DNA of 64,000 nt. Source: a virus. Under the pieces are notes generated by a model. It worked only from the letters and a program-made list of their open reading frames with translations, ran no database searches and was not told the DNA's origin. The position numbers and the translations under genes are program-made. Positions within the stretch are counted from its first letter, which is position 1; the number at the start of each line of letters is the position of its first letter. Positions 14,184-60,099 of the stretch are shown here, piece after piece. Location of the stretch: IMG/VR virus record IMGVR_UViG_3300020122_000238, positions 124,001-188,000 of that record; one strand, written 5' to 3'.

Positions 14184-14215
14184 CTACACCGCTCTCTGGT
14201 GTAGACAGGACTTCA
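14184..14215 (+). promoter_or_regulatory. Back-to-back GGTGTAG pair; TGGTGTA then 12 nt and ATG
   Basis: CTACACC (14184-14190), 7 nt, GGTGTAG (14198-14204) form an inverted repeat placing one GGTGTA box on each strand in the divergent region. The plus-strand box lies 12 nt before the SNF2 gene's ATG. Confidence 0.6.
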
Positions 14216-15973
14216 ATGACCGCCCTATCCCCGCAAGACACGACGGCTTACGAAACGCTGAAGAAGGTTCGAGCGTCTACAACTGTTGCGTTGAAGCCCA
14301 CCCCCATGCTCAAGGCGAGCATCGTCGGCCTTGACGGACAAGCTCAGGATTTTCGCCTACGGTATTACCAGGTTCAGGGGGTCTTCCACCTTCTGACTAT
14401 GACCAGGATGATTTTGGGGGATGGGACGGGGCTCGGAAAAACGATCCAGGTGATCGCCGCTCTTTGCTATCTGCGTCCCCGGGAGCCCAACAACCGGGTC
14501 ATCATCGTCACCCCCAAGAGCGTTCTACGTCAGTGGGGAGAAGAGATCGAACGCTTCACGACGGGGGTCAAGTGCTACGTCGTGAGTGGGTCTCTTGAAG
14601 AACGCAAAGCGGTCTACGAGAAGTGGGCCAAAGCGCCTGTGGGGGATGACGCCCCCCTCTCCGTGCTCATCGTCAACTACGCGATCATCGTTCGAGACTG
14701 GGATCAGGGTAGCCAGTCTATTCCCGGGAAGACTCCCAAGGAGAAGCCGACCGTGCTGCCCGGCTACCTGGACGGGATCACTCGGGGAATGGACCTGGTC
14801 GTCATCTACGATGAGGCGACGGCATTCAAGAACCATTCAACCAAGACGTGGCAGACGTGCCGCTATCTCTCGGATCGAGCGAAGAGGTGCTACGGGCTCA
14901 CGGCGACGCTTCTCAAGAACAACTTGATGGAGGGCTTCTCGATCTTCAAGGTGATCGTCCCTCGCCTCTTTGCGACGAAGACTGCCTTCCTGGCAGCCTT
15001 CTGCATCGTCGAGCAAAAGAGGGTGGCGGGGAACCGGAAGATCCCCATGGTCGTGGGGTACAAGAACCTGGAAGCGTTCCGGGAGAGGATTGACCCCTAC
15101 TTCCTCGGGCGTCCGAAGCACGCGGTGTCTGCGGAGCTACCTGTGCTCACCACGAAGCAGATCATCGTGGAACTGTCGGCCGCCGAGGACCAGAAGTACC
15201 AGGAAGCCCTCTCGGGGGTCCTCGAAATGGGGGACGGGTCCACCAAGGACTACGAGGAGCACAAGGCCTTCGTCTCGCTCTGCTACTGCCAACAGGTCGT
15301 CGACTCGCTCACCTTGCTCAAGTACAAGGCGGGGGACGAGCTGCTCCCCGGCGGGTATGAGCGGCTCGATGCGGAGATCGCCAGCCACACGATCGCGAAG
15401 CTCGGGAGCAAGGAGCAGGCGTTCCAGGACCTCATTCTGGACGAGCTGGATGGTGAGAAGGTCATCGTCTACACCCGCTTCGAGTCTCTTGTGGGGCGCC
15501 TACAGGCCATCCTCAAGGAGAAGGGGATCAGGAGCGGGCGCATCACGGGGAAGGACTCGGATTCGGCTCGCCGAGCCCATCAGAAAGAATTCCAGAACCT
15601 CGATTCAGACATGAAGGTCATCTTCATCACGGACGCCGGAAGCGAGGCCATCAACCTCCAGGCGGCCAGCGCCCTCGTCTTCTACGATGCCCCCTGGAGC
15701 TGGGGCAACTACGTGCAGACCCTTGGGAGGCCGATTCGCATCGGGAGCCCTCACCCCAACGTGTGTGCTTACCACATCGTGGCTGTTCGTCCCAAGGCGG
15801 CGGGGAAGAACAAAAAGACGATCGACCATCACATCCTGACCCTCCTCACGAGTAAGAAGAACCTCGTCGACAAGGTTCTCGGAGAGGCCGCCGTTGGGGC
15901 TCTCGACTTCAAGAAGGATGGCGTTGGGGCTGGGACGAAGGAGCTGCTCAAGCAAATGCGTTCCGGCGAATGA
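14216..15973 (+). CDS. SNF2-family superfamily 2 DNA helicase/translocase
   Basis: 585 residues with the standard motif order: Walker A GDGTGLGKTIQ (about residue 70), Walker B-type DEATAFKN (about 199), GLTATLLKN (motif III) and QTLGRPIRIGS (motif VI, about 500). The length fits a compact phage SNF2 helicase without accessory domains. It is likely to remodel or unwind DNA during replication, repair or recombination. It is the first gene of the replication block and is preceded by a GGTGTA box. Confidence 0.85.
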   Translation: MTALSPQDTTAYETLKKVRASTTVALKPTPMLKASIVGLDGQAQDFRLRYYQVQGVFHLLTMTRMILGDGTGLGKTIQVIAALCYLRPREPNNRVIIVTPKSVLRQWGEEIERFTTGVKCYVVSGSLEERKAVYEKWAKAPVGDDAPLSVLIVNYAIIVRDWDQGSQSIPGKTPKEKPTVLPGYLDGITRGMDLVVIYDEATAFKNHSTKTWQTCRYLSDRAKRCYGLTATLLKNNLMEGFSIFKVIVPRLFATKTAFLAAFCIVEQKRVAGNRKIPMVVGYKNLEAFRERIDPYFLGRPKHAVSAELPVLTTKQIIVELSAAEDQKYQEALSGVLEMGDGSTKDYEEHKAFVSLCYCQQVVDSLTLLKYKAGDELLPGGYERLDAEIASHTIAKLGSKEQAFQDLILDELDGEKVIVYTRFESLVGRLQAILKEKGIRSGRITGKDSDSARRAHQKEFQNLDSDMKVIFITDAGSEAINLQAASALVFYDAPWSWGNYVQTLGRPIRIGSPHPNVCAYHIVAVRPKAAGKNKKTIDHHILTLLTSKKNLVDKVLGEAAVGALDFKKDGVGAGTKELLKQMRSGE

Positions 15974-15991
15974 CGGTGTAGGGGTAGGAAC
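15974..15991 (+). promoter_or_regulatory. CGGTGTA, 11 nt, ATG
   Basis: The box overlaps the stop region of the helicase gene. The spacer GGGGTAGGAAC also contains a weak Shine-Dalgarno-like run. Confidence 0.6.
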
Positions 15992-16627
15992 ATGGTTCCC
16001 TCCAACATCGCGGACAACTTTCGTGCCGACCCTCAACTTTTTATCATGACCCGTTGGACTCAGATAAATCGGTCCAACCAAACATCAATGCACCCTTTAG
16101 TTGAAATCGATGTGGTTGAAATAGTCCACACCAAGGATGGGTCTTCACTATGTGTTGGTGTGGGCAGTAGCGGGCCTCTTCGATCATTTTGGGTGTTGAA
16201 TACGGAGCTTCTATCCGATACCTCCGCATTCAACTACATCGGAACAGCCTCAGAACTCGCGTTCATACAACTTCACACCTGGTTGTACCGTCTCGAATTG
16301 CTGTGGCCTACCCAAAGGAGAATCGGGCAGATCCGAAGCATTGAGGGTAATCTCGTCCGACTGGCCGATACGATCCCCCCCACGGATGCCTCCTATTTCT
16401 ATGAGGCCTATGATGCTATTCTAAGGACCTTCAGAGTAGCCTCGTCGGAAGAAGTCATTGAGGCTTCTCGGCCACCCTCAGAAACTGAGCAGATACAATT
16501 GACCGTGATTGAGGAGGGGATTGGCCCTCTTCCACCTAATCCTATCCCGAATGTTATCGAAGAACTCCCCAGGACCTATGGTCGCCTGACGTCGTGGGAC
16601 ATCCTGGACTTCGAGTCGGACATCTAG
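15992..16627 (+). CDS. Hypothetical protein, atypical base composition
   Basis: 211 residues, no recognised family. Codon use is richer in A/T at position 3 than in the helicase before it and the helicase genes after it, which suggests a more recently acquired gene. The GGTGTA box 11 nt before ATG supports the start. Confidence 0.6.
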   Translation: MVPSNIADNFRADPQLFIMTRWTQINRSNQTSMHPLVEIDVVEIVHTKDGSSLCVGVGSSGPLRSFWVLNTELLSDTSAFNYIGTASELAFIQLHTWLYRLELLWPTQRRIGQIRSIEGNLVRLADTIPPTDASYFYEAYDAILRTFRVASSEEVIEASRPPSETEQIQLTVIEEGIGPLPPNPIPNVIEELPRTYGRLTSWDILDFESDI

Positions 16628-16646
16628 CGGTGTAGGGACGAAGCGA
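16628..16646 (+). promoter_or_regulatory. CGGTGTA, 12 nt, ATG
   Basis: The box overlaps the TAG of the preceding gene. It heads the operon 16647-23415 (loader-like, helicase, small genes, primase module, polymerase). Confidence 0.6.
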
Positions 16647-20518: not shown

Positions 20519-23415
20519 TGGCTGACGAGTTCGATGACGACGATTTTGATTTCTTGAACTCCCCAGCTCCTCTCGGACGCAAGGAGCTGGCCCTCACCGC
20601 GATGGCAAAACAGGCGATGAATCGCCCCGTCGAGTCTTTCGAGGATGAGGGTGGGCTCGACGACTTCATGTCGAACACCGGGATGGTCCGGGAACGCGAT
20701 GTCCCGGACCCGACGAAGCCTTGGATGCGTTTCCACGAGTTCGTGCTCGTGAAGACTATCGAGGAGGTTCGAGCAATCGTCGATGCGGCCATCGCTGCCA
20801 AGAACTGCTCGCTCGACCTGGAAACCCAGGGCCTCGACAACCGCATCTTCTACGATGCGGAGGGCAAACCTCAGACGGTTCACAAGATCGTGGGGTTCTG
20901 TATCTCGTACAACTCCAAGACGGGCTACTACATCCCTGTCCGCCACAGGACCGGCGAGGGGATGCCGGATCTGAACGTCAAGCCGAGCGAGGTCGAGGCG
21001 GAAATCCGTCGCCTATGTCTCGCCTCGCAGCCGACCCCCAAGGGCTCTCCGAAGGACCTCCTTTCCTTCAAGGAGTTCGAGGAGGGGCCTCAGCTCGTCA
21101 TCAACTTCTGGAACGCCAAGTTCGATCAGGAGTTCCTCTTCCCCATTACGGGGATCGACTGGTGGCACCCTGACTCCTTCGAGGATGGTTGCCTGGCTGC
21201 CTTTACGGTCTACTCCGATGATTGGCTCGGTCTCAAGGAGAATGCGAAGGAGAAGCTCCGCGTCTCTGAAGAGGTTACGGGATCGGATGGGAGGCGCTTG
21301 AAGGTCGAATACGCCTACGAGATGATCGAGCTGAAGGAGCTGTTTCTCAAGGGCCGTCCGATCCAGTTCGATGCTCTCTCGCCGGATGAGCCGGGCGTGA
21401 TCAAATACGCCTGTTCAGACGCCATCTGCACGAATCTCCTCTGCCTACGAGACGACCTCGTGAAGCTGTGCCGGGACAAGTACGGCTTCACCTACCGTCT
21501 GGAGAAGCAAGTTTCCCAAGTGGCTCGGGTCATGGAACGCAATCGTGCGATGGTGAACCGAAACAAGGTCAAGCTCCTCTTGGACAAGCACACCAAGAAG
21601 CGCGACGAGCTTCTCGTGCTCATCGATGCTCTCGCCAAGAGCAAGGGCTTCCACGGTTTTGATCCCGCGAGCACCAAGCAGCTCGGGGAGTTCCTCTTCG
21701 GGGAGAAGGGTCTGGATATCTCCCCGAAGCCCGAGAAGAACGAGAAGTCACAGCAGTACAAGACCGACGGAGAGACGCTCGAAAACCTCACGAAGGACAT
21801 GGGCCCCAATGCCCCCATGATCCTCCAGTGGATGGTCAAGCTCCGCGAAGAGGAGAAGCTCCTCGGGACCTATCTTCACAACCTCTACGAGAACTACGAC
21901 AAGCACGCGATGCCTCTGTCGGAGATGCGTTTCGACTGGAAGCAGACGGGAGCTGCCACGGGGCGCTTCTCAGCTCCCGGCCGGAAGGATCACATCGACC
22001 ACGGCTTCAGCGGAGTCCCTATTCACGGGATTCCCTCGACGTCCGATCTCCGGACGTGCTTCGAGGCCCGTCCGGGCTACGCGATGTGCAAGTGCGATTA
22101 CGCAGGGCAAGAGCTGCGGATCGTTACGAACCTCTCGAACGAAAGCGTCTGGATCAAGGAGTTCAAGGAAGGGTCGGGCGACCTTCACAGCATCACCGCC
22201 AGGGCCTTCTTCAACAAGGCGGACATTACCAAGGACGAGCGGAAGATGGGCAAGATTGCCAACTTCGCTCTCGTCTACGGTGGTGGCCCGGCTGCCATCA
22301 TGCGGGCAACGGGCTGTGACAAGGTCGAGGGGCAACGCCGGAAGGCGGCCTTCGATAAGGCTGTCCCGACCTTCGCGAAGTGGGTCAAGCAGCAACATAC
22401 GAAAGTCAAGAGGGACAAGGGTGTCTGGACGGCCTTCGGTCGTTGGATCGCCATCCCCGATGCCAACGTGATGGAAGGGGAGATGCTCAACGGTCGGATC
22501 TTGTCGTCGCAAGACGCGAACATGATCCGAGCTGCCTGTGAGCGACACGCGACGAACTACCCGATTCAGGGGAGCGGCGCGGACATTATGAAGATCGCTA
22601 TGGTTCTTCTTCACAAGGAATTCCACCGCCGGGGCTGGCTCCGAAATGGGGGTGACGATTCGGTTCGGATGCTCCTCACGGTTCACGACGAGCTTGTCTT
22701 CGAGATTCGCTACGATCGTGTGGCGGAAGCCATCCCCCTCATCGTCGAGCAGATGGAGATGCCGACGAAGATGGCAAGGCCTCCCTACTCGCCTGTGTGG
22801 CAGGTCCCTCTTGTTGTCGAGCCCTTGATCGGCTTCAACTGGGGCGCGGGCTACGGGATCGTTCCCTTCAAGGAGGGGTATGTCCTCAAGGAGTTCGAAG
22901 TGCTCCTCGGCGGATTCGTCTACTCTCTCACCCGCGTGGTCGAGAAGGAAGGCGAGATTCTGGAGGAGGAAGTCATCGTCAAGACGGAGGAGAAGAGTGG
23001 CAAGAAGGTCTTCACCATCCGGTTGAAGATCGACCCCCCGTGGCTCAAGGGTGGATCCAGCTCACCTCCGCCGCCTCCTTCAACTCCGCCGTCCTCGGAT
23101 AGCCGTGAGAGGATTGCGCCCCCCTCTTCACCGATGGCCCCCCTGTCTCAACAGACGTTGAAGCAGGATGGGCCGCCGCCCGAGGTGGTCACGATTCGAC
23201 TGCGAGAACTGTCCCCGTCCACGCTTCGGCAAGTCCGTGGAGTGTGCGCGCAGTACATCGATCCCGACAATGGATCGCTTCTCCGGCTGATTGACCCGAT
23301 GTCGGGTAAGACGATCATTGACCCCAAGCTCGGAGTCAAGATCAACCCCGAGATGGTTGCGGGGGCTCTCAAGGAGATGCATCTTTCCGACGGACAGTAT
23401 CTTCCCAGTTCGTAA
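20518..23415 (+). CDS. Family A DNA polymerase with 3'-5' exonuclease and C-terminal extension
   Basis: 965 residues. Exonuclease motifs: SLDLETQ (about 98), NAKFD (about 200), YACSDAICTN (about 299). Polymerase motifs: CDYAGQELR (motif A, about 526), KIANFALVYG (motif B, about 581), TVHDELVF (motif C, about 722). After the core there are about 190 extra residues including a Pro/Ser-rich linker and a small C-terminal domain. It is the main replicative polymerase candidate and ends the replication operon. The ATG at 20518 overlaps the preceding stop; a GTG lies one codon earlier. Confidence 0.92.
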   Translation: MADEFDDDDFDFLNSPAPLGRKELALTAMAKQAMNRPVESFEDEGGLDDFMSNTGMVRERDVPDPTKPWMRFHEFVLVKTIEEVRAIVDAAIAAKNCSLDLETQGLDNRIFYDAEGKPQTVHKIVGFCISYNSKTGYYIPVRHRTGEGMPDLNVKPSEVEAEIRRLCLASQPTPKGSPKDLLSFKEFEEGPQLVINFWNAKFDQEFLFPITGIDWWHPDSFEDGCLAAFTVYSDDWLGLKENAKEKLRVSEEVTGSDGRRLKVEYAYEMIELKELFLKGRPIQFDALSPDEPGVIKYACSDAICTNLLCLRDDLVKLCRDKYGFTYRLEKQVSQVARVMERNRAMVNRNKVKLLLDKHTKKRDELLVLIDALAKSKGFHGFDPASTKQLGEFLFGEKGLDISPKPEKNEKSQQYKTDGETLENLTKDMGPNAPMILQWMVKLREEEKLLGTYLHNLYENYDKHAMPLSEMRFDWKQTGAATGRFSAPGRKDHIDHGFSGVPIHGIPSTSDLRTCFEARPGYAMCKCDYAGQELRIVTNLSNESVWIKEFKEGSGDLHSITARAFFNKADITKDERKMGKIANFALVYGGGPAAIMRATGCDKVEGQRRKAAFDKAVPTFAKWVKQQHTKVKRDKGVWTAFGRWIAIPDANVMEGEMLNGRILSSQDANMIRAACERHATNYPIQGSGADIMKIAMVLLHKEFHRRGWLRNGGDDSVRMLLTVHDELVFEIRYDRVAEAIPLIVEQMEMPTKMARPPYSPVWQVPLVVEPLIGFNWGAGYGIVPFKEGYVLKEFEVLLGGFVYSLTRVVEKEGEILEEEVIVKTEEKSGKKVFTIRLKIDPPWLKGGSSSPPPPPSTPPSSDSRERIAPPSSPMAPLSQQTLKQDGPPPEVVTIRLRELSPSTLRQVRGVCAQYIDPDNGSLLRLIDPMSGKTIIDPKLGVKINPEMVAGALKEMHLSDGQYLPSS

Positions 23416-23455
23416 TCCTGGCATATCCTGAAACGTTCGGGTATTATCCTCCCTC
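23416..23455 (+). promoter_or_regulatory. Possible promoter region
   Basis: The short gap has GGGTATTATCC about 8 nt before the ATG at 23456, resembling a -10 element. No clear -35. No GGTGTA box. Confidence 0.3.
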
Positions 23456-24001
23456 ATGGCTTCGGAACGTCGAGATCTGTACGGAGAATGCAACGTGGAC
23501 GGGGCGACGCTCGACCAGTTCACGGCCGAGTGCTGTTCCCGTTGCATGACTTCGGAGTGTTCTCGGAGCCTCTTGGGTGGGGGTAAGTTCGAGCGTCGTA
23601 TACAGAGCTGGGAGGATCGGTTGTTCACCAACCCTCCGCAGTTGGACCCCAAAGACCCGCGCTACATGAAGATCCAGGGTCAACGCTTCCTGACCCTGGA
23701 TGTCGGGCGCACCCCCGAGATTCGATCCTCGGGGTGGATCGACCCCCTGGCACCAGCTGAAACACAGGAGGCGGCACCCATTTCCCCGCCTTCTCTCATT
23801 TCGGTTCCGGCTGCCCCCAGCTCGAAGTTGGTCCTCCCGCGGCGGCTATCCGGGGCAAATGCTCCGGATCAATCGGGAAAAATGGTGGGGGCCCCGGCGG
23901 CTCCTTCAAGAGATCCGTGGGCCGCTTCTTCTCTTCCTCCCACAACGGATCCAACTATTTCGCCGGGAGGCACAGTCAAGCTCCGCGGTTCTGGTGTATA
24001 G
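23456..24001 (+). CDS. Cys-rich N terminus, Pro-rich tail protein, unknown
   Basis: 181 residues. The first 35 carry five Cys residues (one as ECCSRC), suggesting a metal site. The second half is Pro/Ser/Ala-rich and probably disordered. No recognised family. Confidence 0.55.
   Translation: MASERRDLYGECNVDGATLDQFTAECCSRCMTSECSRSLLGGGKFERRIQSWEDRLFTNPPQLDPKDPRYMKIQGQRFLTLDVGRTPEIRSSGWIDPLAPAETQEAAPISPPSLISVPAAPSSKLVLPRRLSGANAPDQSGKMVGAPAAPSRDPWAASSLPPTTDPTISPGGTVKLRGSGV
23992..23998 (+). promoter_or_regulatory. TGGTGTA box, 48 nt from next ATG
   Basis: The box overlaps the end of the 23456 gene, and the next start (24047) is 48 nt away instead of about 10. It may be chance or a version with a longer leader. 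Confidence 0.25.
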
Positions 24002-24592: not shown

Positions 24593-24630
24593 TCCGGTTC
24601 CCTTCGGCGGCCGGGCGAGTCCCCGGTAAC

Positions 24631-24679
24631 TGAAATGCGAGTGCCCTTTCTCCAATGGAGAAAGGGCACTCGCATTTCA
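24631..24679. repeat. 24-bp perfect inverted repeat (hairpin)
   Basis: Arms at 24631-24654 and 24656-24679 are exact reverse complements around a single A. The stem includes GAGTGCCCTTTCTCC. It lies in the gap between the DUF1257-like and AAA genes, so termination or RNA processing is likely. No T run follows. Confidence 0.8.
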
Positions 24680-24718
24680 GGGGTAGAAGTTCAATCAAGA
24701 TGGGGGTCAAGGCCCCAA

Positions 24719-24735
24719 CGGTGTAAAGAGTCCTT
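24719..24735 (+). promoter_or_regulatory. CGGTGTA, 10 nt, ATG (reference example of the class)
   Basis: The box lies in true intergenic sequence, 40 nt after the hairpin at 24631. The 10-nt spacer AAAGAGTCCT(T) has no Shine-Dalgarno sequence. Across the window [C/T]GGTGTA lies 9-12 nt before ATG at 17 unit starts, 12 of them at exactly 10 nt. Upstream sequence is not conserved, so this is either a single-box promoter giving leaderless transcripts or a translation signal. Confidence 0.7.
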
Positions 24736-26310
24736 ATGTCATCCCACGAAGATCTCGTCTTCCACCTTCGAAGCCTGAGCCGCGTGATCTACTACGTCAC
24801 CGACGAGGAAGATCGGTTTCTCGTGAAGCTGCGGGACACCCTCAAGAAGCACGCTGATCGGTGCTGGGTGTTCAGCGCAACCTTCGGGCTCGTTACGCTC
24901 AAGAACCTGATCTCGGACTGGACCTCGAAGCAGCACGCGATCAATCGTGAGCAGCTCTCGATCCACGACGCCTTGGAGAGCATCTACAAGGACGACCCCA
25001 AGGACGAGCGCAATTTCTACGTTTTCACGGACCCGGAGCGCTGGCTCGCCGATGCCCACGTCAATCGGCGCCTCCTGAACATCGTCCACCAGGTCCACCA
25101 GGACATCAGAACCCTCAAGATCCTGATCTTCGTCGGGACCCGCAAGGCGATGCCGGAATCGCTTGCCCCCTACATGGAGGTCATCCAGGACACCGGGCTG
25201 ACGCCGGAAGAGATCATGTCGACGGTCGAGGCAGCCTGCAAGCACCTCCCCGGAGTCGAGCCCCCGCCCAACTGCGCGCAGCTCTTCGCTGGGATGAACA
25301 GCTACCAGATCGACATGGCCGTGGCGAAGTCTATCGTGGCCACCAAGAAGGACGAGACGTCTCCGAAGCGGATCGACCCGGCGCACATCACGAAATACCG
25401 TCGGAACCAGCTCAAGAAGACGGACCTGCTCCAGCTCCTCGACGTCGAGGGGGTGACCTTCGATCAGCTCGGCGGCAACCACCGCTTCAAGGAGTGGGCC
25501 ATTGAGACGAAGGATAGCTGGAGTGAGGAAGGGCGGGCCTTCGGTCTCAAGCCCCCGAAGGGTGTCCTCCTCGTGGGTGTCTGGGGCTGCGGTAAGTCGC
25601 TGGCGTCGAAGGCGATGGCTCAGGCGTGGGGTATGCCGGTCGTCCAGCTCGAAATGGGCAAGCTCCGTTCGGCCAACGTTGGCCAGTCCGAAGCCAACGT
25701 CTATAAGGCCATTCGGCACATCGAGTCGATCGCTCCCTGTGTGGTGTGGATCGATGAGGCCGAGAAGAGCCTCGGCGGCGGGGCGTCCTCGGCGGCCTCC
25801 GATGCAGGAACGACGAGCCGCACGATCGGTATCCTCTCGACATGGCTCCAGGAGACCACGTCTCCGATCTGCCTCGCCCTCACGGCGAACAGCCTGAAAA
25901 CGCTTCCGATCGAGTTCGTCAACCGGATGGACGAGCGGTTCTTCTTCGACATCCCGAGCGAGGAAGAGCGGATCGAGATCCTTCGTATTCATCTCCGCAA
26001 GGCGGGGCAGAACCCGAGTGATTTCCAGCTCGCCGCTCTGTCCGATGCCTGCAAGGGCATGGTCGGTCGCGAGATCGAGCAGACGGTCGGAGCAGGTATG
26101 CGGAAGAGCTTCAAGGTACGCAGCAAGAAGCTCGATGAGACCATCCTCCTGGACATCGCGGGGAAGAAGCCCCGGATCCTGAAGACGATGGTCGACGAGA
26201 TCCGCGAGCTGGTCGAGTGGGTCGGCTTCGACACGGACGCTAACGAAGGGATCAAGGCTCGCCTGGCTTCGGCCCCGAGCAAGGGAAGCAGCTTCAAGCT
26301 CGTCGAGTGA
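24736..26310 (+). CDS. Ycf46-like AAA+ ATPase
   Basis: 524 residues. A helical N-terminal domain of ~230 residues is followed by an AAA+ core: GVWGCGKS (Walker A, about 283), VVWIDEAEKSLGG (Walker B, about 338), ALTANS (sensor 1) and NRMDERFFFDIP (Arg-finger region). The N-terminal arrangement and the DEAEKSLGG segment are typical of Ycf46-type ATPases of bacteria and plastids. Neighbouring DUF2997- and DUF1257-like genes support this. Substrate unknown. Confidence 0.75.
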   Translation: MSSHEDLVFHLRSLSRVIYYVTDEEDRFLVKLRDTLKKHADRCWVFSATFGLVTLKNLISDWTSKQHAINREQLSIHDALESIYKDDPKDERNFYVFTDPERWLADAHVNRRLLNIVHQVHQDIRTLKILIFVGTRKAMPESLAPYMEVIQDTGLTPEEIMSTVEAACKHLPGVEPPPNCAQLFAGMNSYQIDMAVAKSIVATKKDETSPKRIDPAHITKYRRNQLKKTDLLQLLDVEGVTFDQLGGNHRFKEWAIETKDSWSEEGRAFGLKPPKGVLLVGVWGCGKSLASKAMAQAWGMPVVQLEMGKLRSANVGQSEANVYKAIRHIESIAPCVVWIDEAEKSLGGGASSAASDAGTTSRTIGILSTWLQETTSPICLALTANSLKTLPIEFVNRMDERFFFDIPSEEERIEILRIHLRKAGQNPSDFQLAALSDACKGMVGREIEQTVGAGMRKSFKVRSKKLDETILLDIAGKKPRILKTMVDEIRELVEWVGFDTDANEGIKARLASAPSKGSSFKLVE

Positions 26311-28083: not shown

Positions 28084-28100
28084 CGGTGTAGACGTTTCGG
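28084..28100 (+). promoter_or_regulatory. CGGTGTA, 10 nt, ATG
   Basis: Starts the deoxynucleotidase-ThyA unit. Spacer GACGTTTCGG lacks a Shine-Dalgarno sequence. Confidence 0.65.
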
Positions 28101-30014: not shown

Positions 30015-30032
30015 TGTTCACTGTGCTACGTC

Positions 30033-30911
30033 TTGGACGTGGTGACTGAAGAGTTCCTCCGAAAGAAGTACCTTGGCGATCTGCTCTCCCTTCGGCAGAT
30101 CGCTTCTCTTTGTGGTGTGGCTGTCGGCACGATCCGCTACCACATGAAGCGCTTTGGGATTCCTCGCCGAACGAAATCCGAGGCCCTCTCTGGGGACAAG
30201 AACCCCATGCATGGGAAGACGAAGTCAGATGCGACCCGGCGGAAAACCTCAGAGACCCTTCAAGTCACAAATAAGGATCCTGATGTAAAGGCCCGCCGAA
30301 GCGCCTCAACTTCGGGGATCCGAAATCCCATGTATGGGAAAACACACACAGAAGAGGTAAAGGAAGCCGCACACACAAGGCTGAATTCTATACGACACAC
30401 CCCAGACTTTGTGTCAGCTCAAAAAGCTGCAATGCAACGACTGGAAGTCCGCCAAGCTCTCTCGGAGAGCGCCTCCCAAAGAGTGGGGGAGAAGAACCCC
30501 TTCTTTGGGCATGAGCATAGCTCCGAGACCAAGCAGAAAATAGCTCAAGCCAACCGAGGTCGTTTTCTAGGGGAGAAGGGTTCCAACTGGAAGGGCGGGA
30601 AGACTCGACTCTCAGCTCTGATTCGGAACTCCGAACCGGCAATCCGATGGCGAAAGGATGTCTTCAAGAGGGACGCCTATACTTGCCAGAGGTGTGGTCA
30701 AATTGGGGGTCAACTACAGGCGGATCACATTCAACCTCTTGCGGGGCTCCTCGACGAGCACTGCATCAAGACCCTCGAAGATGCGTTCAACTGTCCCACC
30801 CTCTGGGATTTGACCAACGGTCGGACGCTCTGCATTTCGTGTCACAAAAAGACGCCTTCCTACGCGGGCAACTATCAGAAGAATTATCCTGCGTTCAAGG
30901 TCGCGGTGTAG
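30033..30911 (+). CDS. HNH homing endonuclease with NUMOD3 repeats
   Basis: 292 residues. N-terminal helix-turn-helix (LRQIASLCGVAVGTIRYHMK), three NUMOD3-type repeats (KNPMHGK, RNPMYGK, KNPFFGH), then an HNH domain (CQRCG...LQADHIQPL...CISCHKKT). Start uncertain: TTG 30033 or GTG 30039. Its last residues, YPAFKVAV, copy the C terminus of ThyA just upstream (INFKVAV). Likely a mobile gene inserted at the thyA 3' end. Confidence 0.85.
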   Translation: MDVVTEEFLRKKYLGDLLSLRQIASLCGVAVGTIRYHMKRFGIPRRTKSEALSGDKNPMHGKTKSDATRRKTSETLQVTNKDPDVKARRSASTSGIRNPMYGKTHTEEVKEAAHTRLNSIRHTPDFVSAQKAAMQRLEVRQALSESASQRVGEKNPFFGHEHSSETKQKIAQANRGRFLGEKGSNWKGGKTRLSALIRNSEPAIRWRKDVFKRDAYTCQRCGQIGGQLQADHIQPLAGLLDEHCIKTLEDAFNCPTLWDLTNGRTLCISCHKKTPSYAGNYQKNYPAFKVAV

Positions 30912-30920
30912 GCTTTCACA
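30904..30920 (+). promoter_or_regulatory. CGGTGTA, 10 nt, ATG
   Basis: The box is embedded in the last codons and stop of the HNH gene (GCGGTGTAG). It may have belonged to the original thyA 3' end before the HNH gene arrived. Confidence 0.65.
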
Positions 30921-31430
30921 ATGCGGGCTCTCGACTGCTTCCTTCTTGAGGTTATACCCACCGGGGCCCTTGCGTTTTTTGACTTGGACCTCGGGGTGTA
31001 CTATCGACTGGGGGAGTCGCCGGCTCATGGGTATCCCAACATCGTGGAAGGGGAGGTCCAGCGACGGATTCAACGTATATTGTGCGAGCCCGTCGCTGTC
31101 TTCGATAGGATACTTGAGGATCGCGCTATGGAAATGCTGTGGAGAGCAGCATTGTCAAATGGGTGGATCCCTGAAGACACCCTCACAACCTGGTTTGCAT
31201 CGCATGACCTCGATTACCAGGGGTGTCGTATAGTCCACAACGGCTGTGAATTGGCTGTTGTTACTCCTGATACTCTCGGGGGGATTATCAGAGCTGATGA
31301 CGTGCAAGACTCACCCTCTGCCAGAAACCTTCTCCTGTTCAACCTCAAGGGGGTTGTGAGGATTGGAGACACGGAAGCAGTTCAAAACGCACGTCCCACC
31401 TTGTGGGACAAACTTGGAGACGACCTATGA
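30921..31430 (+). CDS. Hypothetical protein
   Basis: 169 residues, no recognised family. Less G/C at codon position 3 than neighbours. First gene of a unit with 31427 and 31603. Confidence 0.6.
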   Translation: MRALDCFLLEVIPTGALAFFDLDLGVYYRLGESPAHGYPNIVEGEVQRRIQRILCEPVAVFDRILEDRAMEMLWRAALSNGWIPEDTLTTWFASHDLDYQGCRIVHNGCELAVVTPDTLGGIIRADDVQDSPSARNLLLFNLKGVVRIGDTEAVQNARPTLWDKLGDDL

Positions 31431-31845: not shown

Positions 31846-31851
31846 CGCTTT

Positions 31852-31868
31852 CGGTGTACTATGCCCAG
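31852..31868 (+). promoter_or_regulatory. CGGTGTA, 10 nt, ATG
   Basis: An in-frame ATG at 31861 lies inside the spacer, but the 10-nt rule picks 31869, which also fits the CYTH family start. Confidence 0.65.
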
Positions 31869-32372
31869 ATGGGCACCGAATTCGAGCGCAAGTTCCTCCT
31901 CACCACCACCGAGTACTTCCACCCCGAGGCCTATCGGAGTGGCGGGACGAACATCGTCCAGGGCTACCTCTCGGAGAAGCCCTGCGTGCGGGTTCGGACC
32001 ACGCTGAACACCCCCAACGAATTCCACGGTTTCCTCACCGTCAAGGGTCCGGGTCTACTCGAACGCCCCGAGTTCGAGTACGAAATCCCCTATGAAGAGG
32101 GAGTTTCGATGCTCGCCATGTGCCCGGACACACTGAAGAAGGTCAGATTCACGGTGTACACCGCGGGGCATCTTTGGGAGGTCGACCGTTTCGGTGGCCA
32201 CCTCGAAGGGCTCTGGCTTGCGGAAGTCGAGTTGAAGAACTCGACTGAGTACATCGAGCACCCCGCCTGGCTCGGGAAAGAGGTCACGTTCGACGCTCGC
32301 TACCAGAACGTGAACCTCATCAAATGGGGGGTCCCCCAAGAAGACCCCGGTGTAATCTTGGGGAATGCCTGA
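31869..32372 (+). CDS. CYTH-domain phosphohydrolase/cyclase-like protein
   Basis: 167 residues. GTEFERKFLL gives the ExExK signature at the N terminus; later VRVRTT, LTVKGPG, FEYEIP and AEVELKN supply the alternating charged residues of the CYTH tunnel. The family acts on triphosphates (thiamine triphosphatase, CyaB, tripolyphosphatase) using divalent metal. The substrate here is unknown; nucleotide or tripolyphosphate hydrolysis is a guess. The first gene of its unit. Confidence 0.8.
   Translation: MGTEFERKFLLTTTEYFHPEAYRSGGTNIVQGYLSEKPCVRVRTTLNTPNEFHGFLTVKGPGLLERPEFEYEIPYEEGVSMLAMCPDTLKKVRFTVYTAGHLWEVDRFGGHLEGLWLAEVELKNSTEYIEHPAWLGKEVTFDARYQNVNLIKWGVPQEDPGVILGNA
32348..32364 (+). promoter_or_regulatory. 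CGGTGTA, 10 nt, ATG
   Basis: Lies inside the end of the CYTH coding region (codons for PGVI). Confidence 0.6.
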
Positions 32373-32832: not shown

Positions 32833-32836
32833 GTCC

Positions 32837-32853
32837 TGGTGTACTAGACCCCC
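32837..32853 (+). promoter_or_regulatory. TGGTGTA, 10 nt, ATG
   Basis: Spacer CTAGACCCCC, with no Shine-Dalgarno. Nearly the same block (TGGTGTACTAGATCCCC) precedes clpX at 39359. Confidence 0.7.
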
Positions 32854-36541: not shown

Positions 36542-36558
36542 CGGTGTAAAGCGTCCAC
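36542..36558 (+). promoter_or_regulatory. CGGTGTA, 10 nt, ATG
   Basis: Spacer AAAGCGTCCA(C), no Shine-Dalgarno. Drives the RNA ligase-like gene divergently from the GIY-YIG gene. Confidence 0.7.
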
Positions 36559-39204: not shown

Positions 39205-39369
39205 ATGGCGGATATAGAGATCCATCTGTCTGGGGAAAACGAAGACTGGCTTTGTAAGAAAGATGACGAAGAACCCAAAAAGCCAAAAGAGGCGACGCTC
39301 GTTGAACGTGTGGCTCGGCGAGCGTCGCGATCAAAACGTCCCCCAAAAGAATCCGGAATGGTGTACTAG
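39205..39369 (+). CDS. Small acidic-basic protein with C-terminal RVARR motif
   Basis: 54 residues. The C-terminal TLVERVARRASRSKR resembles the RVxARY motif seen at the ends of other proteins. Starts 3 nt after the ART-like gene. The last codons carry the GGTGTA box of clpX. Confidence 0.55.
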   Translation: MADIEIHLSGENEDWLCKKDDEEPKKPKEATLVERVARRASRSKRPPKESGMVY

Positions 39370-44111: not shown

Positions 44112-44128
44112 TGGTGTACTTGGGGGAT
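44112..44128 (+). promoter_or_regulatory. TGGTGTA, 10 nt, ATG
   Basis: Picks ATG 44129 over a TTG 18 nt upstream that lies within the box. Confidence 0.65.
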
Positions 44129-45596: not shown

Positions 45597-45855
45597 AATT
45601 TCTGTCGTCCCTCTCGACGAAGACTCTCCCGACTTGACGGACGAAGATACCCGTCAAGCACAACCGACAGACTCCGCCGGGGATGTCACCCAATCGCTGA
45701 AAAACTTGTCGTGCTGCTCTTGTGGGGCTCGACCCGAGCCCACCTCGTATGCTTTACGACGAAGAGGCCCTCACTTTTACTGGAAGGTGAGCTTGCGCTG
45801 CCTTGAGGGGCACGAGCGGATCATGGTTTTCCAGACGGATTGGATCGGACGATGA
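45586..45855 (+). CDS. Small zinc-ribbon-like protein
   Basis: 89 residues. CCSCGARPEP...LRCLEGH suggests a metal site. In-frame ATG 12 nt upstream. Unknown. Confidence 0.55.
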   Translation: MKPEISVVPLDEDSPDLTDEDTRQAQPTDSAGDVTQSLKNLSCCSCGARPEPTSYALRRRGPHFYWKVSLRCLEGHERIMVFQTDWIGR

Positions 45856-46202
45856 GCGACAACGGTTGTTGCGACGAGGAGCCCCGATGCACCAACTGCG
45901 ATCGGGACACGAAGAACAACGTGTGGCTGGAGCGAGGCACGCCGGGGGCGATCGGCATCTGCCTCCTCGACACGATGACCCGATCGCAGGTCATCTACTG
46001 CCTGGAGCACGATGAGAGATCCCGAGCGGACCTCCTACGGATCACATCCAATCCGGATCTCCTGGAGCTGGCTGCTACGGTCACCAGGCTCCCGACTGTG
46101 GAGCTGATGGACGCAATGCAGAGCGACTTCAATCGAGAGGGCCCCTCTACGAACGTGCTCTACTCGACGTTCAAGGGGATCTCTCCCTGGGTGGGCTCGT
46201 GA
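45852..46202 (+). CDS. Hypothetical Cys-rich protein
   Basis: 116 residues, ATGA overlap. N-terminal CCDEEPRCTNCDRD then a helical domain. No recognised family. Confidence 0.6.
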   Translation: MSDNGCCDEEPRCTNCDRDTKNNVWLERGTPGAIGICLLDTMTRSQVIYCLEHDERSRADLLRITSNPDLLELAATVTRLPTVELMDAMQSDFNREGPSTNVLYSTFKGISPWVGS

Positions 46203-46735
46203 ATGAAGACCCGTCTACTGGAGACCCCGTCGCAGTCCTTGGCTCCGAAGAACGCAATCGAGTGGCACCGGCTGATGACGGAGGTCCTCACCTCCGCTCA
46301 GACGATCGAATCCAGGCATCTTCCCGGGCTACGTCTGGCCGTGTCGAAGGGGCAGACCGAGCAAGCTCTCCGCCGGTTGGGGATCATCTGCCAGGCGGAC
46401 ATCGAGCGGGAGTTCCCCAAGAAGTAGACCCTGCTGAAGAGGCCCTCCAGAGCTTCTCGACCGGAGATCCCACCCAGGTCTTCGCCGCCGTTGAGAAGCT
46501 CGCTGAGGCCTATCACGAGATTCTTGCGGAAGGGGCTCGGCTACGGTTCCGTCTGAATTTCGGGACGGTGATCTGCGAGCGTTGCGAAGGGCTCAAGGCT
46601 GGGCCTGGGGTGATTGCAACGTGCTTCCAGATCAAGAAGTGCAATTTTGCAAACGTCCGTGAAGAGGACGTCTCCAAAAAGCATCTCAGAGTCCTGAAAT
46701 CTCGAATTGGGACCGACCCCAAAATATATCCTTGA
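46203..46735 (+). CDS. Hypothetical protein, frameshifted near 46417
   Basis: As read, ATG 46203 ends at 46427 (74 residues). Coding then continues in the -1 frame (EVDPAEEALQSFSTGDPTQV) with no start codon, to a stop at 46735, with CxxC (ICERCEG) and CNF residues. Adding one C to the CCCC run at about 46416-46419 gives one protein of about 177 residues. Confidence 0.55.
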
Positions 46736-47665: not shown

Positions 47666-47682
47666 CGGTGTCAGTATAAACG
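47666..47682 (+). promoter_or_regulatory. CGGTGTC, 10 nt, ATG
   Basis: Last base differs (C). Spacer AGTATAAACG. Heads the unit 47683-50377. Confidence 0.55.
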
Positions 47683-50381: not shown

Positions 50382-50398
50382 CGGTGTAAGATCGGAGG
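50382..50398 (+). promoter_or_regulatory. CGGTGTA, 10 nt, ATG
   Basis: Spacer AGATCGGAGG also has a GGAGG Shine-Dalgarno right at the ATG, unusually close. Confidence 0.65.
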
Positions 50399-51617: not shown

Positions 51618-51901
51618 TCCTTCGATCCTGGGAGCCAGCGACACCAGATGCTCGTTACTTTTGCCGTCGGGATCACGAGACAGGGCGGGCAATCGTCTAC
51701 GTGATCCCCAAGAAAGTAGACGATATGGAAAGACCCAATGGCGTCTGTAAGAAAAGTGATGGGGATGGGGGTGGCGCTGGGAGGTAAATCGATGCCCTGA
51801 CTCTCATGTTGGGGGGGGGGGGTTTGAGCTGCACTTCGAAAAGGCAAAAGAGGCGGCTGATATTCTCGCTCTTCAGCTCGGACACACGTTCTTGGTGTAG
51901 C
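51614..51901 (+). CDS. Hypothetical protein broken near 51761
   Basis: ATG 51614 opens MILRSWEPATPDARYFCRRD and reads to TAA at 51784. Coding then appears in the -1 frame (WEVNRCPDSHV, then GFELHFEKAKEAADILALQ) to the TAG at 51899. Adding one G in the GGGG at 51761-51764 or the GGGGG at 51767-51771 joins them. A run of 12 G (51811-51822) encodes four Gly. No recognised family. Confidence 0.45.
51811..51822. repeat. Run of 12 G
   Basis: The only homopolymer of this length in the window. It lies inside the interrupted gene, so the length may be miscalled or variable. Confidence 0.8.
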
Positions 51902-53152: not shown

Positions 53153-53188
53153 GGGGGTCCTACGAGGCCAAGCTCGACACGATCAACC
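53153..53188 (-). promoter_or_regulatory. GGTTGATC-16-CGTA promoter-like element
   Basis: GGTTGATC at 53188-53181, 16 nt, CGTA at 53164-53161 (first base C), then GGACCCCC and ATG. Confidence 0.65.
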
Positions 53189-53912: not shown

Positions 53913-53948
53913 GGAGGTCCTACAGGAGGACGGGGCATACGATCAACC
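53913..53948 (-). promoter_or_regulatory. GGTTGATC-16-TGTA promoter-like element
   Basis: GGTTGATC at 53948-53941, 16 nt, TGTA at 53924-53921, GGACCTCC, ATG. Confidence 0.7.
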
Positions 53949-54317: not shown

Positions 54318-54353
54318 GCTTCTCTTACACACCGGAAACCTTGAGGATCAACC
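54318..54353 (-). promoter_or_regulatory. GGTTGATC-16-TGTA promoter-like element
   Basis: GGTTGATC at 54353-54346, 16 nt, TGTA at 54329-54326, AGAGAAGC, ATG. Here the spacer ends in CCGGTG, so a partial GGTGTG box also overlaps. Confidence 0.7.
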
Positions 54354-57655: not shown

Positions 57656-59032
57656 ATGAAAGCAATGAGCACGTCTCAATCTCTTCGCGTTTTGGCGAAG
57701 TATAAAGCCAAAAAGAAGGTCAAGAATCAAGACGGCGAGGACATGACCGTCTACGAGTATTCCGACAAGCAAATCGCCAACCGGAACCGGGAGAAGGCGA
57801 AGCGAATCGAGAAGCTCCGAGGCAAGATCGACGACGTCCGCTCGAAGGCCAAGAAGGACCTGAAGTCGAGCGACCCCGAGAAGATGCTCACGGCACTCGC
57901 CGTGATGCTGATGGACCACACGTATGAAAGGGTTGGGAACGACGAGAGCGCGGACGACGGGCACTTTGGGGTCACGGGCTGGCAGAAGGACCACATCACC
58001 TTCAGCAAGGGCGGGGCGACCATCAAGTACGTCGGCAAGTCCGGCGTCAAGCACGTCAAGAAGGTGACCGACTCGACCATCACCAAGGCGCTCAAGGATG
58101 CCTGTGAGGCGGCTGAGAACGAGACGTCTTGCATCTTCGAGTGGGACGGGGGCAAGGTCTCAGCCGAGAAGGTGAACGCCTACCTGAAGGAGTTCGACAT
58201 CTCGGCGAAGGATATCCGTGGGCTACATGCAAATGTCGAAATGCAGGAACAGCTCAAGGCTGCCAGGAAGAAGGGCGGCAAGCTTCCCGAGGACCCCAAG
58301 AAGCGGGATAAGCAGCTCAAAGAGGAGTTCAAAGAAGCACTCGAAGTCACGGCGGAAGCCGTAGGCCACGAGCCTGCCACGCTGAAGAGCCAATATTTGG
58401 TCCCTGGAATGGAGGAAGATTTCTTGAAGGACGGCGTGATCAACGAGAAGCTCCACACGAAGACGGCAGATCTCAAGCAGGGGTGCGCCGGCTGTAGTTG
58501 CCACGCTAAACCCGAGGAGCACGACCAGTCGGAACGGGTGATTGCTCGTTTCTTGAGCCAGGACAAGAAAGCGGTGGGGTATTACGATACCGATCGTGAT
58601 GAGACTTGGGTGGATCCTACAAAGGACCTCGACAAGTGGCTTGATAGGCTTCTACGCTTGACTCAAGAGGCCAAACGAGATGCCCCAGGAGAGCATCGAC
58701 GTGGAGAAGGCCCTGGGAAGGCCTATCTAGAGCTTTCCAGCTTTATGGGAGACCGGGAGCACACGAAGTGGTACAAGTTCTTCTATGCTTCCACTGTTCA
58801 GAAGGATGTCTCGTCCGCTATAGTCCCCAACGACTATAGCGATCCCAAGATGGCGCAAGACTACAGTCAATGGCTCGACAAGTTGGAGGACGCTATCAAG
58901 GACGCGGACGCGGAAATCCGTAGGGATGACCGTCCTGGAGACAAGATGTTCGAGCTGAAATGGATCATGAAGAACTACAGTAAAGAGAAGTGGTATGCCT
59001 ATTACTTCATGCAGTCCATGACATTCCGGTGA
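57656..59032 (+). CDS. Type IB DNA topoisomerase with extra C-terminal domain
   Basis: 458 residues. The viral-type topoisomerase IB core has YERVGNDES (Arg, about 89), a Lys in KYVGKSGVKHV, AKDIRGLHANVEMQE (Arg/His region) and SQYLVP (Tyr nucleophile, about 246). MSTSQSLRVLAKYKAKKK carries the motif, and SERVIARFLSQDKK (about 294) repeats it before a ~150-residue helical domain unknown to me. It relaxes supercoils. The start may be Met4. Confidence 0.85.
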   Translation: MKAMSTSQSLRVLAKYKAKKKVKNQDGEDMTVYEYSDKQIANRNREKAKRIEKLRGKIDDVRSKAKKDLKSSDPEKMLTALAVMLMDHTYERVGNDESADDGHFGVTGWQKDHITFSKGGATIKYVGKSGVKHVKKVTDSTITKALKDACEAAENETSCIFEWDGGKVSAEKVNAYLKEFDISAKDIRGLHANVEMQEQLKAARKKGGKLPEDPKKRDKQLKEEFKEALEVTAEAVGHEPATLKSQYLVPGMEEDFLKDGVINEKLHTKTADLKQGCAGCSCHAKPEEHDQSERVIARFLSQDKKAVGYYDTDRDETWVDPTKDLDKWLDRLLRLTQEAKRDAPGEHRRGEGPGKAYLELSSFMGDREHTKWYKFFYASTVQKDVSSAIVPNDYSDPKMAQDYSQWLDKLEDAIKDADAEIRRDDRPGDKMFELKWIMKNYSKEKWYAYYFMQSMTFR

Positions 59033-59164
59033 TTGCTCACCAGGTTCTTGATCGCCGACAAAGTCATGGTCGCCTACGGTCCCGGCCGAGTGCCGGAGCA
59101 AGTCCGACACTGGCTCCACATCGCCATCCCTGGGAAAGTCAAGTTCGCTAGAACTCTTCCATAA
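59033..59164 (+). CDS. Possible small protein after topoisomerase
   Basis: 43 residues from TTG directly after the TGA and in the same frame (LLTRFLIADKVMVAYGPGRV...). Typical codons. Overlaps the end of the convergent Dam gene. Start uncertain (ATG 59066). Confidence 0.35.
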   Translation: MLTRFLIADKVMVAYGPGRVPEQVRHWLHIAIPGKVKFARTLP

Positions 59165-60080
59165 GGGCGTTCATGTAGGTAAAGGGGTCCTCTTGGTGCT
59201 CCGAGATGAAGGGGGTGAGCCCCTCCCTACGCCCCACCACCACAAGCTCTCCAACAGCCTCCCGCTTCGCTCCGTCCGAGTTGATAGAGCGCCCCATCTT
59301 GACCTCGTGGATCTCCCATCCAGCGTACAGCTCCCTCACGAGGGGCGTATCCGAGTTTGAGAGAACGACAGCCACACCACGCTCTGCCAGCTCGGCGAAG
59401 CTCTTGGCGAGGGCTCTCTGTGCTTCCTCGTCGAATCCTTCTGAGGTGTACCCCGTGAAGCTCGCGGTCTCAGAGACCGGCACGTAGGGGGGATCGAAGT
59501 AGACGAGGTCTCCCGGCTGAGCCTTGGAGATACTGTCCTGCCAGGAGTTGTGACGAACAAATAGTTCGTCTTGTCTTGAATCGATCTCCCGGAGTACCTG
59601 AGCACAAGCCGAGATATTGGCCGCATCACAAATCTGGGCCATCTCGTCCTTTCCCCAAGAAGAGTTGAATTGCCCCTTCTTGTTGGTACGGTACAGGCCG
59701 TTGAAGCAGGTCTTGTTCAGGAAGATCATCCTGACAGCGCGGGTGACCGGCTCCAGAAGAGCCGGATCCATCTGTCGCCAGGTCGTGAACGTTTCCTTGG
59801 GGGCGATGCGGTACGCTTCCGCAACCATGAGGAGGTCTCGAATCACCTCCTCACCGAAGCCGCCGATCATCAGGTACGCGTTGACCAGCTCGGCATTCAG
59901 GTCGGACAAGACGGCCTTCTCGAACCTCTTTTCTTGAGCGAGCGCCCAGAAACTAGCGCCACCCCCAAGGAAGGGTTCGTAGTAGGTCCCAATCTTCTTG
60001 GGGTAGATTTTGAGGAGGAAGGGAAGAAGGGTGGTCTTGCCACCAACCCATTTGAGAAAGGGGCGCGCGGGGGAGGACAT
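59148..60080 (-). CDS. dam: Dam-type DNA adenine methyltransferase
   Basis: 310 residues. ARPFLKWVGGK (motif X), YYEPFLGGGASFW (motif I), KTCFNGLYRTNKKGQFN and VYFDPPYVPVS (motif IV DPPY) match Dam-type N6-adenine methylases, usually GATC-specific. May protect phage DNA or alter gene control. ATG 60080 fits the family start; the ORF is open back to 60119. Confidence 0.9.
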   Translation of the reverse strand: MSSPARPFLKWVGGKTTLLPFLLKIYPKKIGTYYEPFLGGGASFWALAQEKRFEKAVLSDLNAELVNAYLMIGGFGEEVIRDLLMVAEAYRIAPKETFTTWRQMDPALLEPVTRAVRMIFLNKTCFNGLYRTNKKGQFNSSWGKDEMAQICDAANISACAQVLREIDSRQDELFVRHNSWQDSISKAQPGDLVYFDPPYVPVSETASFTGYTSEGFDEEAQRALAKSFAELAERGVAVVLSNSDTPLVRELYAGWEIHEVKMGRSINSDGAKREAVGELVVVGRREGLTPFISEHQEDPFTYMNALMEEF

Positions 60081-60099
60081 ACCCCTCCTGGCTACACCG
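60081..60099 (-). promoter_or_regulatory. CGGTGTA, 12 nt, ATG (minus strand)
   Basis: The only copy of this box serving a minus-strand gene with short spacing; spacer GCCAGGAGGGGT also has a Shine-Dalgarno. Confidence 0.55.

Follow-up and report, generated by a model that had tools for sequence, protein, structure and literature searches.

The late promoters of phage T4 (TATAAATA) consist of one -10-like element with no -35 element and are read by a phage sigma factor, gp55; their leaders are not fixed relative to the AUG. The cluster K mycobacteriophages reportedly carry a start-associated sequence, a gene-start motif in phages smaller than the one considered here and different in sequence and spacing from the element that we describe, the heptamer YGGTGTA, which stands about 10 nucleotides (nt) before many start codons in a 64,000 bp stretch of viral DNA (hereafter the window, bases 124001-188000 of G000, the 275,300 bp IMG/VR virus record IMGVR_UViG_3300020122_000238). 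Among phages whose sigma factors work with the host core polymerase, phiEco32 (gp36) has promoters with the single element tAATGTAtA and a transcription start 6-8 bp downstream, accounted for by a sigma factor that lacks region 4, and phage 7-11 (gp47) has two elements, GTAAtg-(16)-aCTA, and a sigma factor with region 4 (PMC8948821). In Deinococcus-Thermus, a -10 element TANNNT that adjoins the open reading frame (ORF), is read by RpoD and has spacing needs gives leaderless mRNAs, and about a third of the D. radiodurans genes have such promoters (PMC12340547). The late promoters of the jumbo phages phiKZ and AR9 are short motifs read by phage multisubunit polymerases, and AR9 leaders are 26-491 nt long (PMC7598289, PMC5312081). 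Minimal sigma factors with one helix-turn-helix (HTH) are reported in group 2 of the jumbo phages (PMC7824862), and Shine-Dalgarno (SD) sequences can rarely be identified in huge phages in which S1 proteins may be present (PMC7162821).

The YGGTGTA box resembles the phiEco32 promoter as a single element that shares TGTA and lacks a conserved -35, and a second, two-element class of the same phage resembles the 7-11 promoter in its 16 bp spacer; it differs from both in its other letters, in a near-fixed distance to the start codon at dozens of genes and in the presence of both classes in one genome, and the sigma function is here a predicted one. With Deinococcus-Thermus it shares a promoter-like element just upstream of the ORF, although the phage box is YGGTGTA with no TANNNT. 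Like phiKZ and AR9 this is a jumbo phage with a short promoter motif, but no multisubunit polymerase was found where searched; like the T4 late promoters the box is a single -10-like element without a -35, but with other letters and a near-fixed distance to the AUG. No description of the box was found in the open-licence literature, the box letters themselves not having been a search query. We think it probable that YGGTGTA is a single-element phage promoter, similar to an extended -10 and lacking a -35, which a phage sigma factor would use with the host core polymerase to make leaderless or near-leaderless mRNAs.

The window is jumbo-phage DNA, with genes for a DnaB-like helicase, an SNF2-like helicase and a topoisomerase IB (Pfam) in addition to phage-family matches, while in the remainder of G000 there are genes for RecA, a 5'-3' exonuclease and a capsid-like protein, and a weak match to a terminase. 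With the AAA-ATPase of the window (24736-26310) as query, 13 loci of 51-94% identity were obtained. G001 (350,469 bp) is a close relative, with a DNA polymerase 94% identical to that of G000, and G002 apparently represents almost the same phage in a shorter record; these three are not independent of one another, nor are G006 and G007. Six records were read whole, namely G000, G001 and the large records G005, G006, G008 and G010, the last four of which have 53-68% GC. Gene starts were taken from a simple caller that was blind to the boxes, and some of them are wrong. The one-box YGGTGTA sites are referred to as class 2 and the two-box promoters as class 1, and a box is called far when it lies 15-90 nt upstream of a gene start.

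The two strands of the window hold 25 YGGTGTA boxes, whereas 100 dinucleotide shuffles held 5.09 on average and 10 at most, and 16 of the 25 are followed by ATG at 9-12 nt (Table 1). The original prediction, made from the letters of the window, had listed 17 sites, of which 15 carry the motif. Of the other two, 47666 reads CGGTGTC and was one of twelve sites placed at exactly 10 nt, the other eleven being correct; 44646 reads GCGTGTA and was one of five placed at 9-12 nt, the rest of which (14197, 15974, 16628 and 60099 on the minus strand) stand. Sites at 62452 on the minus strand and at 23992 had been missed. The central claim, a box about 10 nt before ATG, holds in the window and genome-wide, where the spacing peak persists and has no counterpart in controls: YGGTGTA-N10-ATG occurs 43 times in G000 against none for the reversed pattern, 49 times against one in G001 and 24 times against one in G002. 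Counted independently of gene calls after the 771 boxes of the six records, ATG is found 102 times at offset 9, 193 times at offset 10, 46 times at offset 11, and 24 and 27 times at offsets 12 and 13, every other offset from 0 to 40 giving 2-18; an ATG stands 7-14 nt after 413 of the boxes. No ATG peak follows any of six control words, among them RGGTGTA and YGGTGT[CGT]. Boxes 8-13 nt before called starts number 266, against 0-2 for eight permuted words, and variants at 9-11 nt before ATG are scarce (228 exact with Y, nine exact with R, and five or fewer for each single substitution). In ten further records GGTGTA-N10-ATG was counted 138 times against 15 in the control, some single records being weak: the excess is clear in G004 (5 against 0), G005 (29 against 2), G006 (31 against 3), G008 (21 against 0) and G010 (25 against 2), and weak in G003 (2 against 0), G007 (6 against 1, at sites shared with G006), G009 (4 against 1), G011 (10 against 4) and G012 (5 against 2).

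Comparison of G000 with G001 shows that GGTGTA is unchanged in all 31 aligned boxes (186 of 186 bases), with flanks that are 85% identical over 22 bases upstream and 87% over eight downstream. The 46 alignable boxes that have a start at 6-13 nt (31 called starts and 15 uncalled ATGs) are all intact, as are the nine far boxes that can be aligned (of 13), where 5.0 would be expected; in two of these far boxes an uncalled ATG follows at 10 nt. Boxes located within genes remain near expectation, both in the sense orientation (6 of 9 intact, 4.2 expected) and antisense (8 of 12, 6.8 expected), and antisense RGGTGTA is intact at 9 of 22 positions against 10.6 expected. The conserved letters are YGGTGTA only: no T is conserved after the TA, there is no conserved -35, and the information content stays at or below 0.25 bit throughout -30 to -8, in agreement with the earlier statement that the upstream sequence is not conserved. 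The box letters are identical across phages of 53-68% GC. In the distant phage LR745208 the N10-ATG pattern occurs twice, against once in the control, and of 71 GTGTAA words 11 precede a called start by 8-13 nt. An artefact of composition or codon use might be argued from the 358 of 771 boxes, many of them within genes, that are not followed by ATG at 7-14 nt, and from the total of 304 RGGTGTA words, but it is refuted by the shuffles, the reversed patterns, the permuted words and the conservation footprint, and we give it practically no credence.

That many spacers lack an SD sequence had also been noted, and the wider count bears this out, with an SD core at 40 of 265 box-proximal starts against 48 of 106 far-box starts, a set that includes some miscalled starts, and 621 of 1620 unmarked starts (Fisher 3e-9 and 9e-15). 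ATG is the start codon at 247 of 265 class-2 genes, 146 of 147 class-1 genes and 1381 of 1603 unmarked genes. In its near-fixed short distance to the start, the scarcity of SD sequences and the preference for AUG, the box agrees with leaderless promoters that have their -10 at the ORF. Two explanations had been offered, a one-box promoter that makes leaderless mRNAs and a new ribosome-recruiting signal. In the second, YGGTGTA would be an mRNA element that recruits the ribosome in place of the SD sequence, which would suit the near-fixed spacing to ATG, the depletion of SD sequences at marked starts and the identity of the box in phages of such different GC content, but boxes away from start codons disfavour it. 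Intergenic far boxes, 15-90 nt upstream of a start, number 73, whereas eight permuted words occur there 3-11 times each, and the conserved far boxes carry SD sequences of their own: an SD is present in 27 of 47 clean cases, and in 8 of 10 of those within 30 nt of the start. A box also ends no more than 30 nt (10-28 nt) upstream of six of 142 tRNA or tmRNA genes, for instance 15 nt before the G006 tmRNA and 10 nt before a tRNA-Ile of G001, a position at which one of eight control words was matched three times and the other seven not at all; within 150 nt upstream of these genes class-2 boxes are found at 12 of 142, against 4 for four control words together. The tRNA and tmRNA genes themselves number from 11 to 54 per record in G001, G005, G006 and G008, three of which have tmRNA, and include tRNA-SeC(tca) in G001 and G005, tRNA-Stop(tta) in G005 and tRNA-Pyl(cta) in G006; these, with anticodons that read stop codons, are possible suppressor tRNAs.

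Gene context points in the same direction. One or other promoter class precedes 151 of the 328 genes that come first after a strand switch and 370 of the 1414 codirectional genes separated by a gap from the gene before, compared with 26 of the 425 that overlap or adjoin it. This enrichment at strand switches would not be expected of a ribosome signal, nor would the -35-like element and rigid spacer of the sister class, or the presence of TTGAT in the exact class-1 register at four YGGTGTA boxes of G001 (one of them before a tRNA gene), though at none in G000. A ribosome signal therefore seems to us most improbable, and YGGTGTA is read as a promoter because of the far boxes with SD sequences, the tRNA and tmRNA boxes, the strand-switch enrichment and the sister two-box class. 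The promoter part of the first explanation fits this evidence, and its leaderless part would follow from sequence features discussed below. The statement that a marked gene is always the first of an overlapping run goes too far, since 10 of the 265 marked genes adjoin or overlap a codirectional gene that precedes them; the marked ATG 32365, for example, falls within ORF 31869-32372.

Neither the second promoter class nor the sigma-like genes, which lie outside the window, had been seen in the original prediction. Among the hexamers overrepresented upstream of starts are TTGATC, GTTGAT and CTGTAG, and class 1 in G000 and G001 has the form GGTTGATC-N16-TGTAG. When GTTGATC and TGTAG occur in this order within 40 nt, they are 16 nt apart in 27 of 35 cases in G000 and in 69 of 74 in G001, with none in the reversed-word control; both elements are conserved between the two phages, and the sequence of the 16 bp spacer is not. 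From TGTA to ATG there are 8 nt in 54 of 80 cases and 11 nt in 12. Ten further records gave two matches to TTGATC-N16-TGTA, against two in the control, and four of the large records each have a two-box site of their own with one dominant gap before starts: GTTGATC..CGGCATAC in G005, GGTTGATTC..GGGTTGTAGT in G006, TTTTGATTCC..GCGTAGTA in G008 and CTTAAC..CCGTTCTA in G010. At the commonest spacing, the first base of the -35-like pattern lies 33-35 nt upstream of the ATG, counted to its A, in all records with class 1. The two-box class thus appears to drift between phages, and the one-box class does not. The site of the distant phage LR745208, TAAAAAGT..[GA]CCGATAGGG, has longer leaders that appear, on reading, to carry SD sequences. 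In this 485-kb phage TAAA-N15-[GA]CCGATA is present at 34 sites in 300 kb, most of which are followed by an ATG within about 25 nt, GAGG- or AAGG-like words standing in between.

The position of class-1 transcription starts can be judged from sites that are not close to a start codon. There are 246 class-1 sites in the six records, 135 of them with ATG at the modal place, a descriptive figure as the place was set from the mode. Among 52 sites without a near ATG or GTG, a pyrimidine-purine step is found at the predicted +1 in 34, against 15 for the best of 17 other offsets (binomial 5e-8 against this best rival). In 13 genes whose ATG lies three nt further, the predicted +1 is A in 92%, and of the 106 class-1 genes that have ATG at the modal spacing 90% have C at -1, compared with 40% of the 1381 unmarked genes that start with ATG. 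The distances would suit a -10 hexamer of sigma type followed by a 6-nt discriminator, and transcription would then start at the A of the ATG. Because the start signal, the A at +1, the use of ATG and the distances all fit a +1 at the ATG, class-1 mRNAs are probably leaderless. SD cores are found at 5 of 69 class-1 starts in G005, G006, G008 and G010 together; the corresponding counts in G000 (8 of 23) and G001 (30 of 55) are hard to interpret, as the purine-rich TAGGA at the box can enter the SD window.

We envisage that a divergent sigma factor encoded by the phage would direct the host core RNA polymerase to YGGTGTA, where transcription would start at the start codon or a few nt before it, giving an mRNA with no leader or a very short one, and that the 70S ribosome would initiate at the 5'-terminal AUG without an SD sequence. 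The second class, GGTTGATC-N16-TGTAG, would place +1 on the A of the AUG, and either promoter, when farther upstream, would give an ordinary leader, often with an SD sequence. The polymerase would be directed by two proteins with similarity to sigma region 2, described below, or by one of these with a region-4 protein; which sigma reads which box is a matter of guesswork. We infer the promoter nature of the box, the class-1 start site, the use of the host core polymerase and 70S initiation from patterns in the DNA. For class 2, leaderlessness rests on the analogy with class 1 and on spacing, since no offset stands out in the far boxes; a leader of zero to a few nt is likely, and the 9-11 nt spacing would, by analogy with phiEco32, imply leaders about 1-5 nt long. 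A broader view, which we advance tentatively and with slightly more doubt than confidence, is that of a genome-wide leaderless programme, in which two promoter classes with +1 on or near the AUG would be read by two tandem and fast-diverging phage sigma factors, one promoter language being fixed and the other drifting, and the SD sequence being bypassed.

Candidate readers of the boxes are encoded by these phages. A protein of 236 amino acids (aa) in G000 (23072-23782) contains sigma region 4 (Pfam 2.5e-13; PHROG sigma factor 6.8e-10) and has relatives in G001, G005, G006, G008 and LR745208; the G010 contig seems to begin after the stretch that would hold the gene. No region 2 was found in this protein. 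The gene just upstream of it (G000 21084-23060) encodes a protein with a 5'-3' exonuclease at its C-terminus and, towards the N-terminus, a weak resemblance to NusG and antiterminators. An adjacent gene pair with region-2 similarity, sigA and sigB, is present in G001, G005, G006 and G008, the copies being 30-35% identical to those of G001, as against mostly 40-65% for core proteins. Pfam Sigma70_r2 is matched above the cut-off by G008 sigA (2.4e-6) and G005 sigB (4e-7), and the G001 pair was recognized through its relatives because the Pfam region 2 found nothing in G001; region-4 matches of the pair are weak. A profile search of solved structures led from sigA to ECF SigH (E 0.0072) and gave nothing for sigB. 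In Foldseek searches, six of the first seven rows for sigA and none of the first 12 for sigB are sigma or sigma-complex entries. When VIA-align re-ranked the Foldseek list, sigma or RNA-polymerase entries took the first 18 places for sigA (Z 4.6-6.4) and the first ten for sigB (Z 5.2-7.7), the sigB rows RPSH and RPSB being read by us as sigma-H and sigma-B. The sigA rows include 9m7y, a gp79-dependent complex and so presumably one of phiEco32, gp79 being a phiEco32 factor (PMC8948821). G000 has no tRNA genes, to which the pair is adjacent in the relatives, and the G000 record is probably cut short.

Two other readers of the box have to be weighed against a phage sigma factor. Recognition by a host alternative sigma factor, or by a phage activator with a host sigma factor, would suit a widely conserved region-4-like protein with no detected region 2, and the class-1 promoters of some relatives do resemble bacterial types, that of LR745208 being similar to the sigma-28 consensus. 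This reading is nevertheless unlikely, for the box is identical across phages that differ in GC content and hence probably in host, and four of the six records have the phage sigma-like pair. A phage-encoded RNA polymerase, either T7-like or phiKZ-like, is brought to mind by the short promoter motifs of the jumbo-phage polymerases of phiKZ and AR9, but appears very unlikely where searches were made: G000, G001 and LR745208 have no match to the beta-prime N-terminal domain (Pfam), nor to a T7-type polymerase (Pfam) in a search without a positive control, and ORFs of more than 200 aa in G000 or G001 have no DxDGD-type catalytic motif. These negatives cover G000, G001 and, in part, LR745208, records that may be fragments. 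Within the window, ORF 30033-30911 has an N-terminal HTH (a weak Sigma70_r4_2 match) and, on reading, an HNH-like C-terminus, and is perhaps a homing-endonuclease-like protein; among the called proteins of the six records it has a partial match in G006, and a similar frame is present in G001.

Several observations weigh against a phage sigma promoter with leaderless mRNAs. No start-site offset stands out either in the 47 clean far class-2 boxes or in the proximal ones, class-2 spacing varies over 9-13 nt, and depletion of SD sequences with near-fixed spacing would by themselves also fit a ribosome signal. The near box is found at only 6 of the 142 tRNA and tmRNA genes, and the called starts at about 10-70 kb of G000 all lack a proximal class-2 box, class 1 being present at two of them. 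The box is invariant even though both sigma-like proteins are just 30-35% identical between phages. The sigA/sigB pair was not found among the called proteins of G000 or G010, and Pfam region 2 was unmatched in G000, G001 and LR745208 (at E 1) and in G010 (at E 5); the Sigma70_r2 cut-off was passed by two copies alone, four of the other six falling below it and two being unmatched. The AlphaFold models are of middling confidence (mean pLDDT 72.7 for sigA and 64.3 for sigB), Foldseek gave no significant match (lowest E 0.37 and 0.80, respectively), and VIA-align Z values below 8 are in the middling range of that tool. G000 and G001 are closely related, so that the counts are partly non-independent. 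As to the box-poor part of G000, two uncalled N10-ATG sites are present there, and its genes include recombination, terminase-like and capsid-like genes; that boxes are dense elsewhere in G000 suggests that they serve early or middle genes. No late promoters were found, and a k-mer and positional scan for a third motif at unmarked genes gave nothing convincing.

Table 1. Promoter-like elements in the window (nt, from the end of the element to the ATG)
Element	Positions	Strand	nt	ATG	Remarks
Class-2 box TGGTGTA	14197..14203	+	12	14216	SNF2-type helicase gene (Pfam)
Class-2 box CGGTGTA	15974..15980	+	11	15992	
Class-2 box CGGTGTA	16628..16634	+	12	16647	Next gene, DnaB-like helicase (Pfam)
Class-2 box TGGTGTA, far	23992..23998	+	48	24047	SD-like CGGAG in leader; conserved in relative
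Class-2 box CGGTGTA	24719..24725	+	10	24736	AAA-ATPase gene
Class-2 box CGGTGTA	28084..28090	+	10	28101	
Class-2 box CGGTGTA	30904..30910	+	10	30921	Inside tail of upstream ORF
Class-2 box CGGTGTA	31852..31858	+	10	31869	Second ATG at 2 nt
Class-2 box CGGTGTA	32348..32354	+	10	32365	
Class-2 box TGGTGTA	32837..32843	+	10	32854	
Class-2 box CGGTGTA	36542..36548	+	10	36559	
Class-2 box TGGTGTA	39359..39365	+	10	39376	
Class-2 box TGGTGTA	44112..44118	+	10	44129	
One-mismatch site CGGTGTC, doubtful	47666..47672	+	10	47683	
Class-2 box CGGTGTA	50382..50388	+	10	50399	
Class-2 box TGGTGTA	51893..51899	+	10	51910	DHH phosphoesterase gene
Class-2 box CGGTGTA	60093..60099	-	12	60080	
Class-2 box TGGTGTA	62446..62452	-	10	62435	Not in the original prediction
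Class-2 box CGGTGTA, far	14185..14191	-		14133	Tandem, upstream of class-1 promoter of same gene
Class-1 TTGATC-N16-TGTA	14143..14168	-	9	14133	
Class-1 TTGATC-N16-TGTA	13719..13744	-	8	13710	
Class-1 variant TTGATC-N16-CGTA	53161..53186	-	8	53152	
Class-1 TTGATC-N16-TGTA	53921..53946	-	8	53912	
Class-1 TTGATC-N16-TGTA	54326..54351	-	8	54317	
Class-1 TTGATC-N16-TGTA	60490..60515	-	8	60481	Start outside gene calls

Other features of these genomes deserve mention. A perfect 24-bp inverted repeat with a 3-nt loop (window 24630-24680) separates the box at 24719 from the gene upstream, and may be terminator-like or a processing site. The topoisomerase gene of the window (57656-59032) is of the eukaryotic type (topoisomerase I, type IB; Pfam). 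At G000 29680-33072 a gene with a weak terminase ATPase match is split by an intein with a LAGLIDADG domain, and the match in G001 is shorter. The capsid-like protein (G000 45652-46533) is 92-100% identical in six phages and 82% in LR745208, other core proteins being mostly 30-70% identical, and may be unusually constrained or recently exchanged.

A cultured phage offers a parallel. Tunturi_5, a phage of Tunturiibacter, has a capsid protein 47.7% identical and a gp3 annotated as a sigma factor, and its layout is similar to that of the window phage, though the letters differ: in 150 kb there are 25 GGTATTA words, ten with an ATG at 4-7 nt, where 21 sites of a control word gave one, together with nine TCATCT..TAGGTT two-box sites (TCATCTTT..TTGTAGGTT), which are small numbers. 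This similarity makes the promoter reading of YGGTGTA testable.

In summary, if that reading is true, promoter and start codon would be fused over much of a phage genome, and leaderless translation at scale would be predicted in phages whose unmarked genes often use SD sequences. The two-part promoter, found in five forms of constant geometry beside an unchanged one-part promoter, provides a natural series for the co-evolution of sigma factors and their sites, and the promoter maps of uncultured jumbo phages would become readable from sequence alone.

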